Shown here: positions 21,641-26,228 of the stretch, piece after piece | Layout: the number at the start of each line of letters is the position of its first letter | Numbering within the stretch: the stretch's first letter is position 1 | Assembly (NCBI RefSeq): GCF_028561335.1 | Contig: NZ_JAQQTG010000040.1 | Coordinates: 1 to 32,917, forward strand | From: Aequorivita todarodis | Lineage (GTDB): Bacteria > Bacteroidota > Bacteroidia > Flavobacteriales > Flavobacteriaceae | DNA: 32,917 nt | Direction of reading: 5' to 3' | Translations under genes and position numbers: made by a program | The notes under the pieces: model-generated | The model's input: only the letters and a program-made list of their open reading frames with translations | Told to the model about the DNA's origin: nothing | Databases searched by the model: none

Positions 21641-23335
21641 TTATTTCCCATAGGCATCCGCATGTACATTCTTAACCGCCCGCCCGCTTGGGTCGTTCAT
21701 ATTCTTAAAACTCTCGTCCCAGTCCAAAGCTACTTGGCTACTGCAGGCCACACTCGGTACGCTGGGTACCGTTAAAGCGGCCGCATCGCTGGGAAAATGC
21801 TCTTCAAAAATGGTTCGGTAGTAAAACTCTTCCTTGCTTGTTGGCGTCTGGATGGGGAATCGGTAATGGGCATTGGCTATTTGGTCGTCCGTTACTTTTT
21901 CGTTTACCATTTCTTTTAAGGAATCGATCCAACTGTAGCCCACACCATCGCTAAACTGTTCCTTTTGGCGCCACGCAACTTCTGCCGGCAGCATATCGCC
22001 AAAGGCTTCGCGAAGCACCCATTTTTCCATGGCCTGCTTGTCCTGCGGCGCTTTTTGTCCGGCCAGTATCATTTTATCTTTTGGATTTAGGCGCATGGCG
22101 ACATCCATAAACTCTTTATCGAGAAAGGGTACACGGCCTTCAATGCCCCAAGAAGCCAAGGATTTATTGGCGCGAAGGCAATCGTACATATGAAGTTTGT
22201 CCAATTTTCGTACGTTTTCTTCGTGAAAATCCTTTGCCGAAGGGGCTTTGTGAAAATAGAGATACCCACCAAAAATCTCGTCGGCCCCTTCGCCGGAAAG
22301 TACCATTTTTATCCCCATGGCCTTAATGGCACGCGCCAATAAAAACATAGGGGTAGAGGCGCGAATGGTAGTAATATCATAGGTTTCCACGTGATAGATT
22401 ACATCCTGGATTGCATCCAGCCCTTCCTGGATCGTAAAATGGATTTCGTGGTGCACGGTCCCCAAATGGTCTGCCACTTTTTGGGCGGCAGCCAAATCTG
22501 GCGAGCCTTCAAGACCAACGGCAAACGAATGTAGCCGAGGGTACCAAGCGCCTTCGGTATCGCCGGATTCCACCCGTTTATCGGCATATTTTTTGGCCAG
22601 GGCAGAGGTAATGGAAGAATCCAACCCGCCCGAAAGCAAAACCCCGTAGGGCACATCGCTCATCAATTGTCTTTTTACGGCGGCGTCCAATGCTTTGCGC
22701 AGGTCTTCGATGCTGGTTTCATTTTCCTGAACGGCATCAAACTCCATCCAGTCGCGGGCCCACCATCTTGTTAGTTTACCATCACTGCTGTGCAAATAAT
22801 GTCCCGGAGGAAAAAGTTCAATTTTGGTACAATAGCCTTCCAAAGCCTTCAATTCGCTGGCTACATAAAATGTTCCGTCCTTGTCCCACCCCATATAAAG
22901 CGGAATAATGCCCATATGGTCGCGGGCAATCAAGTATTCGTTCTTTTCGGCATCGTATAAAGCGAAACCGAAGATTCCGTTAAGCTCATCCAAAAAGGAA
23001 GCTCCTTTTTCTTTGTAAAGGGCCAAGATTACTTCACAATCGCTTTTTGTTTGAAAGTTGTATTTTCCCTCAAATTGCTTCCGCAGTTCCATATGGTTGT
23101 AGATTTCGCCATTGGCGGCCAAAACCAGCTTTTTATCTTCAGAAAACAAAGGCTGTTTCCCCGAAGTTGGGTCAACAATAGCCAAGCGTTCGTGAGCCAT
23201 AATTGCTTTTTTGTTATTGAAAATACCGCTCCAGTCTGGGCCGCGGTGCCTCAGGCATTTTGCCATGGTCAATAACTGTGGCCTTAGTTCTTCTGAAGGC
23301 CTTTTAAGATCGAATGCACATACAATTCCACACAT
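21641..23335 (-). CDS. asnB: Asparagine synthase (glutamine-hydrolysing) AsnB
   Basis: A 564-residue class B asparagine synthase that makes asparagine from aspartate, glutamine and ATP. The glutaminase domain starts MCGIVCAFD with nucleophile Cys2, followed by RHRGPDWSG (about 30-38) and ANGEIYNH (about 74-81). The synthetase domain has the PP-loop LLSGGLDSSI (about 229-238) and the C-terminal motif GEGADEIFGGY (about 343-353). It is close to the E. coli AsnB length. Its upstream region holds a leader peptide rich in Asn codons followed by a terminator, suggesting attenuation by charged tRNA-Asn. Two repeats lie between that terminator and the start codon. Confidence 0.95.
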   Translation of the reverse strand: MCGIVCAFDLKRPSEELRPQLLTMAKCLRHRGPDWSGIFNNKKAIMAHERLAIVDPTSGKQPLFSEDKKLVLAANGEIYNHMELRKQFEGKYNFQTKSDCEVILALYKEKGASFLDELNGIFGFALYDAEKNEYLIARDHMGIIPLYMGWDKDGTFYVASELKALEGYCTKIELFPPGHYLHSSDGKLTRWWARDWMEFDAVQENETSIEDLRKALDAAVKRQLMSDVPYGVLLSGGLDSSITSALAKKYADKRVESGDTEGAWYPRLHSFAVGLEGSPDLAAAQKVADHLGTVHHEIHFTIQEGLDAIQDVIYHVETYDITTIRASTPMFLLARAIKAMGIKMVLSGEGADEIFGGYLYFHKAPSAKDFHEENVRKLDKLHMYDCLRANKSLASWGIEGRVPFLDKEFMDVAMRLNPKDKMILAGQKAPQDKQAMEKWVLREAFGDMLPAEVAWRQKEQFSDGVGYSWIDSLKEMVNEKVTDDQIANAHYRFPIQTPTSKEEFYYRTIFEEHFPSDAAALTVPSVPSVACSSQVALDWDESFKNMNDPSGRAVKNVHADAYGK

Positions 23336-23353: not shown

Positions 23354-23380
23354 TTAATAGTTAATAGTTAATAGTTATTC
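23354..23380. repeat. Heptamer tandem repeat upstream of asnB
   Basis: Three perfect copies of TTAATAG (23354-23374), then a partial copy. It lies 19 bases before the asnB start codon and so in the 5' leader. It is slippage-prone; no function is apparent. Confidence 0.85.
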
Positions 23381-23385
23381 TGTTT

Positions 23386-23490
23386 GACATCCCGCCCCAA
23401 CCCTCTCTTCAAAAGGAGGGAGCCTTTTTGTGACGAACCATTTTAAAGGTTCAGAGTTCCCCCCCCTTTGAAGGGGGCAAGGGGGATGTC
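23386..23490. repeat. GC-rich inverted-repeat element in the asnB leader
   Basis: Ends GACATCCC (23386) and GGGATGTC (ending 23490) face each other; further inward the arms hold C-rich and G-rich tracts, and a small inner hairpin (GAACC/GGTTC) lies at 23434-23451. It has the look of a small non-coding mobile repeat. It sits exactly against the T-tract of the asnB attenuator-like terminator, and similar C/G-rich runs occur at 26532-26551 and 26642-26661. Confidence 0.65.
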
Positions 23491-23528
23491 AAAAAAAAAA
23501 GCCCGCCAAGTAAAAAACCTGACGGGCT
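23491..23528 (-). terminator. Terminator between leader peptide and asnB
   Basis: The stem AGCCCG..CA/TG..CGGGCT (arms 23500-23508 and 23520-23528, one mismatch) is followed by ten T on the minus strand. It lies 21 bases after the stop of the Asn-rich leader peptide. It is either the attenuator of asnB or the terminator of the E1 gene, or both. Confidence 0.85.
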
Positions 23529-23549
23529 GTATATCGCGACAAGTTTTTG

Positions 23550-23597
23550 TTACGGCAGCTCGTTATTATTATTGCTATTTAAACTGATAAAAGACAT
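23550..23597 (-). CDS. Asn-rich leader peptide of asnB
   Basis: A 15-residue frame MSFISLNSNNNNELP with Asn at positions 7 and 9-12, four of them consecutive. It precedes a strong terminator and then asnB. This is the layout of ribosome-mediated attenuation: scarce charged tRNA-Asn stalls the ribosome on the Asn run. ACAAGTTT just before the leader ATG can pair perfectly over eight bases with AAACTTGT just after its stop, offering an alternative fold to the terminator. A weak promoter (TTG 23655-23657, TACTTTAA 23631-23638) lies upstream. The reading of this as asnB control is inference. Confidence 0.72.
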   Translation of the reverse strand: MSFISLNSNNNNELP

Positions 23598-23720
23598 AAA
23601 CTTGTTGTTTTTATTAATTGAATTGCTAATTTAAAGTAATTAATTGTGGACTTCCAAATATTTAATGAAGAAAATGCAATTAATAGTTGAAACTATAAAA
23701 AATTCGATTAAGTGCAGTTT

Positions 23721-26135
23721 TTAACGCAGTTTCGGAAATTCTGATGGATTTGTTTCGTGCATAATTTCATAAACCTTTTCATAAATATCTTCCAAAGAAG
23801 GTTTACTGAAGTAATCGCCATCGGTACCATACGCAGGACGGTGGTCCTTTGCAGTGAGTGTTTGTGGTTTACTATCCAAATATTTATAACCGCCCTGCAC
23901 TTCTACAATGTGGTTTAAGATATAAGCTGAAGCACCACCCGGAACGTCTTCGTCTATAACCAGAAGTCGGTTGGTTTTTGCGACACTCTTTACCATATCG
24001 TGGTTAAGATCTAAAGGAAGTAATGACTGCACGTCAATAACCTCAGCATCTATGCCTGCTTGTTGCAGTTCCCTTGCGGCCTCCTCCACAATTCTTAGGG
24101 TACTTCCGTAGGAAACCAGTGTGATGTCAGTTCCTTCCTTTACGGTTTCAACAATGCCTATTGGGGTTTTGAGTTCGCCCAGGTTGTTGGGCATTTTTTC
24201 CTTTAGGCGGTAGCCGTTCAAACATTCAATTACCAATGCGGGTTCGTCTGTTTCCAGTAAAGTATTGTAAAAACCTGCGGCTTTGGTCATATTTCGCGGC
24301 ACGAGAACGTACATTCCGCGAAGCAGATGGATCAAACCGCCCATTTGTGAACCGCTGTGCCAAATTCCTTCCAGCCTGTGGCCACGGGTACGGACAATCA
24401 AAGGTGCTTTTTGGGTGCCGTTGGTCCGGTAGCGAACGGTTACCAGATCATCGCTCATTATTTGAAGGCAATACAATATATAATCCAAATACTGGATTTC
24501 GGCAATGGGACGCAGGCCGCGCATTGCCATCCCAATTCCCTGCCCGAGAATGGTGGCTTCGCGAATTCCGGCATCGGCAACCCTCAGTTTGCCGTACTTT
24601 TCCTGCATGCCTTCCAAACCTTGGTTTACGTCGCCAATCTCGCCGCTGTCTTCGCCAAAAATCAACACTTCGGGATGTTTTGTGAAAATAGCATCGAAGT
24701 TATCACGAAGTATGACCCTTCCGTCAACTTCCTCGGCATCGTTAGCATAGGAGGGAAGCACCTCTTTTATGGTTTTGGCATTCTCTTTTGCTTCAGAATA
24801 GAGATGCGCACTGTATTTTGGCTGTATTATTTCGAAATAATTGGTTACCCAATCCTGCAACTGCTTCTTTTCAGCTGAATCTTCGCCCACTACATAGCGC
24901 AATGCCTTTCTGGCGGAAGCAATGATCATTCTGCGCAAAGGTTCTTTTTCAGAAGCCAGTTCGTTCTTTATTTTTTCTATGAAATTTTTGTTGGCACTAT
25001 TTTCGGCTAAATTGCCAAGCAACAATACCGCTTCTTCCTGCTCTTTCTTTTGTGGGGCAAGGAAAGCTTCCCAAGCTGCTTTTTTACCGTCGCGGACCCT
25101 TTTCTTTATATCGTTTTCCATTTCGGCCAGTGTCTCTTCCGTGGCAATGTCGCTGGCTATGATCCACTCGCGCATTTTTAGATTGCAATCGAACTTCGCC
25201 TCCCATTCAAGGCGTTCCTTGCTTTTGTAGCGTTCGTGGGAGCCGCTGGTACTGTGGCCTTGCGGTTGTGTGAGTTGTTGTACGTGGATCAATACGGGAA
25301 CGTGTTCTTCTCTTGCAATTTTTGAGGCACGGGTATAGACTTCAATAAGCTCTGGATAGTCCCAGCCTTTTACACGAATGATTTCATAGCCGTTTTCTTC
25401 CTCGGTGCGCTGAAATCCTTTAAGTATTTCTGAAATATTTTCTTTGGTAGTTTGGTATTTAGCATGCACGGAAATTCCGTATTCATCGTCCCAAACGCTC
25501 ATGATCATCGGTACTTGCAACACCCCGGCAGCGTTTATGGTTTCCCAAAATAAACCTTCGCTGGTGCTGGCGTTGCCGATGGTTCCCCAAGCCACCTCGT
25601 TTCCGTTGATGGAGAAATTGGTTTTGTTTTCAATGCCCTTTACATTTCTGAAAATTTTGGAAGCCTGCGCCAAGCCCAATAATCGTGGCATCTGTCCCGC
25701 GGTGGGCGAAATATCGGCACTGCTGTTTTTTTGTGCCGTAAGGTTTTTCCAACTGCCGTCCTCGTTCAGACTGTGGGTTGCAAAGTGCCCGCCCATCTGT
25801 CTTCCGGCACTCATTGGGTCCGCCTTTATGTCTGTATGGGCGTAGAGCCCTGCAAAAAATTGTTCAATGGTAAGCTTTTCGATGGCCATCATAAAAGTTT
25901 GGTCGCGGTAGTAGCCACTGCGCCAATCGCCGTTTTGGAAGGCTTTTGCCCAAGCCAGTTGCGGCACTTCCTTTCCATCGCCAAAAATCCCAAATTTGGC
26001 TTTCCCCGTAAGCACTTCGCGACGGCCCAATAAACTACATTCACGGCTGGTTACTGCAATTTTATAATCGTTCAGAACGGTTTCCTTAAAATCGTTAAAT
26101 GAAATCTCGCCGTTGGTCTTTGGGTCTGTCTGCAT
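23721..26135 (-). CDS. Fused E1 alpha/beta 2-oxoacid dehydrogenase
   Basis: An 804-residue protein with the alpha and beta E1 subunits of a 2-oxoacid dehydrogenase joined in one chain. The alpha half (about 1-400) has the ThDP-binding region AWGTIGNASTSEG (about 180-192). The beta half (about 475-804) has FGEDSGEIGDVNQG (about 493-506), then REATILGQGIGMAMRG and IDEDVPGGASAYI. Fused E1 of this type probably oxidises branched-chain 2-oxoacids, feeding iso-fatty acids. Substrate is inferred from the family. The ATG at 26135 is chosen because a full promoter lies just upstream, which an earlier TTG at 26207 would precede. No E2/E3 genes are adjacent. Confidence 0.88.
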   Translation of the reverse strand: MQTDPKTNGEISFNDFKETVLNDYKIAVTSRECSLLGRREVLTGKAKFGIFGDGKEVPQLAWAKAFQNGDWRSGYYRDQTFMMAIEKLTIEQFFAGLYAHTDIKADPMSAGRQMGGHFATHSLNEDGSWKNLTAQKNSSADISPTAGQMPRLLGLAQASKIFRNVKGIENKTNFSINGNEVAWGTIGNASTSEGLFWETINAAGVLQVPMIMSVWDDEYGISVHAKYQTTKENISEILKGFQRTEEENGYEIIRVKGWDYPELIEVYTRASKIAREEHVPVLIHVQQLTQPQGHSTSGSHERYKSKERLEWEAKFDCNLKMREWIIASDIATEETLAEMENDIKKRVRDGKKAAWEAFLAPQKKEQEEAVLLLGNLAENSANKNFIEKIKNELASEKEPLRRMIIASARKALRYVVGEDSAEKKQLQDWVTNYFEIIQPKYSAHLYSEAKENAKTIKEVLPSYANDAEEVDGRVILRDNFDAIFTKHPEVLIFGEDSGEIGDVNQGLEGMQEKYGKLRVADAGIREATILGQGIGMAMRGLRPIAEIQYLDYILYCLQIMSDDLVTVRYRTNGTQKAPLIVRTRGHRLEGIWHSGSQMGGLIHLLRGMYVLVPRNMTKAAGFYNTLLETDEPALVIECLNGYRLKEKMPNNLGELKTPIGIVETVKEGTDITLVSYGSTLRIVEEAARELQQAGIDAEVIDVQSLLPLDLNHDMVKSVAKTNRLLVIDEDVPGGASAYILNHIVEVQGGYKYLDSKPQTLTAKDHRPAYGTDGDYFSKPSLEDIYEKVYEIMHETNPSEFPKLR

Positions 26136-26155
26136 TTCAATGGGTTTTAGTTTTG

Positions 26156-26186
26156 CAAAAATAGCGAAATTGAGGGTGTTTCGCAA
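26156..26186 (-). promoter_or_regulatory. Promoter of the E1 fusion gene
   Basis: On the minus strand, TTG (26184-26186), a 20-base spacer and TATTTTTG (26156-26163) match the -33/-7 consensus. The start codon lies 20 bases downstream of the -7 box. Confidence 0.65.
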
Positions 26187-26228
26187 CGCATAGTTATACA
26201 CATCCAAATTTTTGAAAGGGAATGCTTT

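Follow-up and report, generated by a model that had tools for sequence, protein, structure and literature searches.

Transcription attenuation by translation of a leader peptide is best known from the classical amino-acid attenuators, the trp, his, phe, thr, leu, and ilv leaders of proteobacteria. The leader that we analyze here, which lies upstream of an asparagine synthase gene (asnB), is like them in having a run of cognate codons, alternative 1:2, 2:3, and 3:4 pairings, an intrinsic terminator, and a biosynthetic gene downstream. It differs from them in its Asn codons, in its Flavobacteriaceae host, and in a segment 1 that is located before the start codon, whereas theirs is located inside the frame. 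Within Bacteroidetes, the Bacteroid-trp RNA is read as a Trp attenuator. This RNA (RF01692) has been listed among probable cis-regulatory RNAs of Bacteroidetes (Weinberg 2010, PMC2864571). Going by its name, it concerns another gene and another amino acid than the asnB leader, and RF01692 did not match the asnB leader region at the gathering score or up to an E value of 5.

Two further systems come close to the asnB leader. The ilvB uORF motif of Corynebacterium combines a short, conserved frame containing many cognate codons with a P1 element containing an antiterminator sequence and a P2 terminator (PMC11109978). It is similar in plan to the asnB leader, with different amino acids, genus, and gene, and we claim no likeness in sequence. 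The His leader peptides of Bacillus hisS/hisZ are an example of leader-peptide attenuation outside Proteobacteria that involves tRNA synthetase genes, His codons, and Firmicutes, and the words “asparagine” and “Bacteroid” are absent from the main text of that paper (Naville and Gautheret 2010, PMC2965389). Among open-access papers, judged by titles and abstract openings, we found no prior report of leader attenuation for Asn or asnB, and the openly accessible papers on attenuators in Flavobacteria or Bacteroidetes included none on asnB regulation of the attenuator kind. The preliminary description of this locus had named a terminator-based Asn leader for asnB as one not known to be described in Bacteroidetes, which agrees with our having met no earlier case in that open-access literature. 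By each sequence feature tested, the mechanism type would thus be the known one of a classical leader-peptide attenuator, and its application to Asn and asnB appears to be new in searchable papers.

The window, by which we mean the whole 32,917-nt stretch of Aequorivita todarodis DNA that was analyzed (contig NZ_JAQQTG010000040.1), contains asnB on the minus strand as the gene directly downstream of the leader terminator. NCBIfam NF006949 identifies its product as asparagine synthase B, with 915 bits against a cut-off of 499. In 5' to 3' order on the minus strand, the locus comprises a promoter-like site, segment 1, the leader frame, segment 2, a linker, the terminator, a repeat, and asnB, with the following coordinates:

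23626..23657, minus strand: probable promoter judged from sequence, with TTG (23657-23655), a gap of 21 nt, and TAAATTAG (23633-23626)
23598..23605, minus strand: segment 1, ACAAGTTT, which abuts the leader ATG on its 5' side and has segment 2 as its partner
23550..23597, minus strand: leader peptide frame, MSFISLNSNNNNELP followed by a stop codon, 15 codons, five of them Asn
23539..23548, minus strand: segment 2, AAAAACTTGT, with mutually exclusive partners, either segment 1 (via AAACTTGT) or segment 3 (via AAAAACTTG)
23513..23521, minus strand: segment 3, CAGGTTTTT, which pairs with segment 2 as the antiterminator and also contributes to the 5' arm and loop of the terminator
23491..23528, minus strand: intrinsic terminator, a 12-pair hairpin (23528-23500) and a U run (23499-23491)
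23378..23498, no strand: dispersed palindromic repeat with arms 23378-23393 and 23483-23498, the outer arm overlapping the U run
21641..23335, minus strand: asnB, encoding glutamine-hydrolysing asparagine synthase B, the predicted regulated gene

The sequence confirms each element that had first drawn attention to the locus, namely a 15-residue frame with five Asn codons (codon 7 and the four consecutive codons 9-12 of the minus-strand ORF 23597-23550), a terminator, and then asnB. On sequence grounds, we consider it very probable that the locus is a classical ribosome-mediated transcription attenuator in which the supply of charged Asn-tRNA sets asnB transcription. This reading is well supported by conservation, the reading frame, three alternative pairings, linkage to asnB, and geometry; promoter use, ribosome stalling, termination, and its relief are the steps that we infer.

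Chance does not readily account for the leader frame. Among ATG frames of 8 to 30 codons on both strands of the window, only the leader contained four consecutive Asn codons, and 60 dinucleotide-shuffled windows yielded a single frame of this sort, which lacked a terminator. Thirty-nine named loci, each about 8 kb long (309,679 bases altogether), contained 36 Asn-run frames, all of them leaders preceding asnB; these loci had been selected for holding the core of the leader, so that the informative point is the lack of an Asn-run frame elsewhere in them. The terminator rule of the frame scan was satisfied by 34 of the 36.

Conservation was followed outward from the genus. When 28 Aequorivita genomes were searched with AsnB, 24 matched, 23 with an orthologue and one with a distant relative only. 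The preliminary description had looked to close relatives for conservation of the Asn run and terminator, and both are kept in the leader that precedes asnB in all 23 genus orthologues. The leader was also present in 26 of 27 next-closest family loci, but among 40 family asnB loci at greater distance it occurred in just two (L090 and L094), the 40 being half of a list of distant family loci that comprised four batches of 20. In the other 38, an Asn leader was not found by eye or in ORF listings. The regions upstream of asnB in these loci without an Asn leader (L089 to L128 except L090 and L094) appeared by eye to be AT-rich, often with a promoter-like TTTG near the gene. The leader occurs in part of one family whose other members have asnB without it, which would, if the attenuator reading is true, offer the gain or loss of an attenuator for study.

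Our alignment of 62 distinct leaders drew 51 rows from AsnB similarity alone (the 23, 26 of 27, and 2 of 40 above), L129 and L130 from model R1, and nine from a pattern holding the stop codon and segment 2. The motif rule by which leaders were recognized itself demanded the stop codon and CTTG. It omits exact duplicates, two leaders truncated at the start of their stretch (L154 and L169), L057, which has no leader, and a stray match in L165. Eight loci retrieved later stand outside it (L192, L198, L199, L203, L221, L222, L223, and L225), among which the L198 leader is the same as that of L168.

Among 397 family genomes, 47 were matched at an E value of ≤0.001 by a covariance model built from the 62 leaders, and at least 41 of these genomes, from 25 genera, have leaders, with asnB seen downstream in 40 and cut off by a contig end in one. 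The matches in three of the six other genomes (G070, G285, and G589) were inspected and rejected as terminators without an Asn leader; G233, G559, and G573 were outside this inspection. In a draw of 296 genomes across the phylum, including the window's own family, there were four model matches, and a leader occurred only in the window's own genome. Because filters used on many genomes miss weak matches, these leader counts are lower bounds. An exact pattern for the 23-base core, run against 84,980 species, each represented by a single genome, found 39 matches with asnB next in all 39, in Aequorivita, Altibacter, Marixanthomonas, Luteirhabdus, Mesonia, Ulvibacter, Aureisphaera, Zunongwangia, and others. 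Since the pattern demands the exact core, these matches speak for linkage to asnB and not for the full spread of the leader. Nine model matches outside asnB (L131, L132, L133, L135, L218, L219, L220, L224, and L226) were judged by eye to be terminators without an Asn-rich leader, and another, L134, was a Trp-rich frame; inspection of the model matches did not extend to the second match in G312 and some weak rows. An Asn leader was not found in eight non-family loci (L176 to L183). Separately, L184 (G157) has a frame, MIFTFNNNNSNCLFAS, upstream of asnB; by eye no terminator accompanies this frame, which may be there by chance or as a remnant.

All 62 distinct leaders are open frames of 11 to 19 codons with 3 to 10 Asn codons, their translation being predicted only. 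Asn accounts for 408 of the 949 codons. The longest Asn run ranges from 1 to 10 codons and reaches at least four in 58 leaders, and in L090 the Asn codons are scattered without a run. The CTTG in segment 2 lies 18 nt after the last Asn codon in 52 leaders; this spacing is 12 nt in eight leaders that have an additional Asn in their tail and 24 nt in the other two. The codons 3' of the Asn run vary freely (ELP, QLP, AKT, GNP, YMP, and others), and their number is mostly three. An LP-stop peptide signal, seen in 23 of 23 genus leaders, was rejected because the leaders of relatives have other endings, the last residue being Pro in 53, Thr in 8, and Arg in 1 of the 62.

The terminator of the window (23530-23491) folded alone at -20.8 kcal/mol with a z score of -8.6, and the entire window leader gave a z score of -2.7. 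Over the 62 leaders, 99.1% of 558 terminator cells were paired, and double changes occurred in six of nine pairs versus 3.2 in shuffles, six being reached in 2 of 500 shuffles; the number of pair types showed no excess over shuffles. The predicted antiterminator, which the preliminary description did not include, joins AAAAACUUG (23548-23540) with CAGGUUUUU (23521-23513), at -8.5 kcal/mol in the window. Its alignment columns, 88-95 with 121-128, were paired in 99.8% of 496 cells, and 14 cells had double changes versus 4.8 in shuffled alignments, with none of 500 shuffles matching either the paired share or the number of such cells, although kinship among the leader sequences inflates covariation scores of this kind. 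Double changes were confined to one pair, 88-128 (40 leaders with A-U, 7 with G-U, 14 with G-C, and one without pairing), and the counts of such pairs (one) and of pair types (six) were at the level of shuffles.

The third pairing had been singled out in the preliminary description. As stated there, ACAAGTTT (23605-23598) before the leader ATG is perfectly complementary to AAACTTGT (23546-23539) 3' of the leader stop codon, but we assign this 1:2 helix the role of a protector and not of the antiterminator. A CARG motif at most 16 nt before or overlapping the start codon was present in 54 of 62 leaders versus 9 of 155 starts of other genes. The longest helix that the upstream DNA could form with segment 2 averaged 6.5, compared with 4.3 when this DNA was shuffled. 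Segment 1 is absent or weak in some divergent leaders, the longest helix being 3 to 4 in 3 of 62. In a column test, the 1:2 pairing reached 66.4% paired with a covariation score equalled by 60 of 500 shuffles; segment 1 is out of register there, and the test is blind to this pairing because segment 1 shifts by a few bases relative to the start codon. In L199, all three segments are altered jointly, by eye, to AAGGT, ACCTT, and AGGT. The linker between segments 2 and 3 is conserved as CGCGATATA or ACCCTATA without a supported pairing. An extension of the antiterminator into this linker (columns 97-98 with 118-120) was rejected, as it was possible in 56 of 62 leaders versus a mean of 57.8 in shuffles, 1,960 of 2,000 of which reached 56.

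With the usual ribosome footprint size, the edge of a ribosome that has the stop codon in its A site (stop codon +12) coincides with the final base of CTTG in 61 of the 62 leaders. A ribosome at the stop codon would therefore cover segment 2, and one stalled on the Asn codons would leave it free, as this modeled geometry predicts. When a ribosome was placed on the last Asn codon and only the RNA 3' of it was folded, up to the end of segment 3, the antiterminator had a mean pair probability of 0.90 and exceeded 0.5 in 61 of 62 leaders; with the ribosome at the stop codon, this probability was 0.00, the segment being masked by construction. Before segment 3 is made, segment 2 of free RNA was predicted to pair with the segment 1 region at a probability of 0.92, exceeding 0.5 in 59 of 62 leaders. 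In free RNA through the end of segment 3, the antiterminator remained at 0.09 in the window's own leader and exceeded 0.5 in 27 of 62 leaders, so that the ribosome-free state is not predicted everywhere. Protection in the absence of a ribosome is thus predicted clearly for the window's own leader and less so for other leaders. Mean energies were -17.6 kcal/mol for the terminator versus -5.0 kcal/mol for the antiterminator helix, whose best fold was -8.1 kcal/mol. In the finished transcript, the terminator prevailed on average in each state (0.96 to 0.98, and 0.96 with a stalled ribosome), which implies that a switch between these structures must be kinetic and decided during RNA synthesis.

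These predictions suggest the following course of events. Transcription would start some 20 to 25 nt upstream of the leader frame. When Asn is sufficient, the ribosome would reach the stop codon and its footprint would lie over segment 2, leaving segment 3 free so that the terminator forms and asnB is not read. When Asn is short, a ribosome stalled on the Asn codons would leave segment 2 free to pair with segment 3 ahead of synthesis of the 3' arm of the terminator, and RNA polymerase would enter asnB. In the absence of a ribosome, segments 1 and 2 would pair and the terminator would form. The layout of ribosome-mediated attenuation that had been proposed at the outset is backed by conservation, codon-level constraint, covariation, and geometry. 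If this interpretation is correct, classical attenuation would extend to a further amino acid, asparagine, and a further gene, asnB.

An alternative is that the terminator merely ends the transcript of the upstream gene (23721-26207), which lies on the same strand as asnB and the leader, and that the Asn run, which is AAT-rich (287 AAT and 121 AAC codons over the 62 leaders), is an AAT microsatellite in a frame open by chance. We consider this very improbable, since the leader stays with asnB as its upstream neighbor changes (about half of the 23 genus loci have the FPKLR-type gene of the window and most others have another) and since a promoter-like site separates the upstream gene from the leader. 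AAT and AAC are also mixed in the run, Lys interrupts it in only 2 of the 62 leaders (L090 and L129), and no untruncated leader is without a start codon (ATG in 61, GTG in one), whereas a microsatellite would leave the antiterminator and geometry unexplained. The promoter-like site, 23657-23626, is one that we take by consensus to be of the Bacteroidetes -33/-7 type. Its columns T20, A21, T24, T25, and G27 (TAnnTTnG) were unchanged in 23 of 23 genus sequences. Across the wider 62 leaders, a claim for this promoter is weak because the strict motif occurs in only 28, 20 of which have TTG 17 to 23 nt upstream versus 5.9 of 62 in shuffled windows.

Alternatively, the terminator might be governed by a riboswitch or T-box, an RNA that binds a metabolite or tRNA, with the short frame being incidental; the conserved linker, for which no pairing is supported, speaks for this reading. 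This is likewise highly unlikely given that the frame and its Asn codons are conserved and that we found no further conserved structure besides the alternative hairpins. In the window, no Rfam family reached its gathering score; for the leader region, all 12 Rfam rows with an E value of at most 5 fell under gathering scores, and none of these rows was a T-box. The idea that the leader works mainly via reinitiation or translational coupling to asnB, for which one paper offers a precedent in proposing that leader genes boost translation of a nearby downstream gene (PMC4833913), is extremely unlikely because the U run ends anywhere between 18 and 157 nt ahead of asnB over the 62 leaders and the terminator intervenes between the leader frame and asnB.

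Returning to attenuation by a translating ribosome, we offer tentatively the further possibility that this is an Asn-specific attenuator of a Flavobacteriaceae lineage whose exact ribosome geometry and conserved linker, which might be a site of polymerase pausing, imply a tight coupling of transcription and translation in these bacteria, most of which lack Shine-Dalgarno sites. To our knowledge, such coupling has hardly been tested in Bacteroidota, for which the leader would, if the attenuator reading is true, provide a natural reporter.

The spacer between the U run and asnB is 155 nt in the window. A palindromic repeat had been reported between terminator and gene, and it is indeed present there, with arms (23378-23393 and 23483-23498) of 16 nt that are 88% complementary. 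Its core occurs in 10 places in the window's genome at three or fewer mismatches, including the copy at 23378-23498. Because the variable spacer is as short as 18 to 33 nt in some relatives, the repeat is not needed and is unrelated to the attenuator.

With respect to other asparagine genes, a search of the window's genome did not find AsnA and detected AsnS. The same genome encodes two distant AsnB-like genes with 36 to 40% identity over parts, and asnB is therefore not necessarily its sole source of Asn. Five genomes of the same genus (G005, G013, G018, G024, and G025) are without an asnB orthologue, G005 having the distant relative only; AsnA was likewise not found in them, and four of the five are listed as at least 99% complete.

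A Trp-run pattern occurred at 56 places in the window's genome versus 51 for a reversed control. In another genome (G298), a gene that by eye resembles tryptophan synthase beta is preceded by a terminator and a short frame, MRKLTLNKTWWWHSLKQACYFAIGIY, in which there are three Trp codons (L134:457-609, plus strand). The region of this frame had no Rfam match at the gathering score, and from its sequence the frame is a probable Trp leader.
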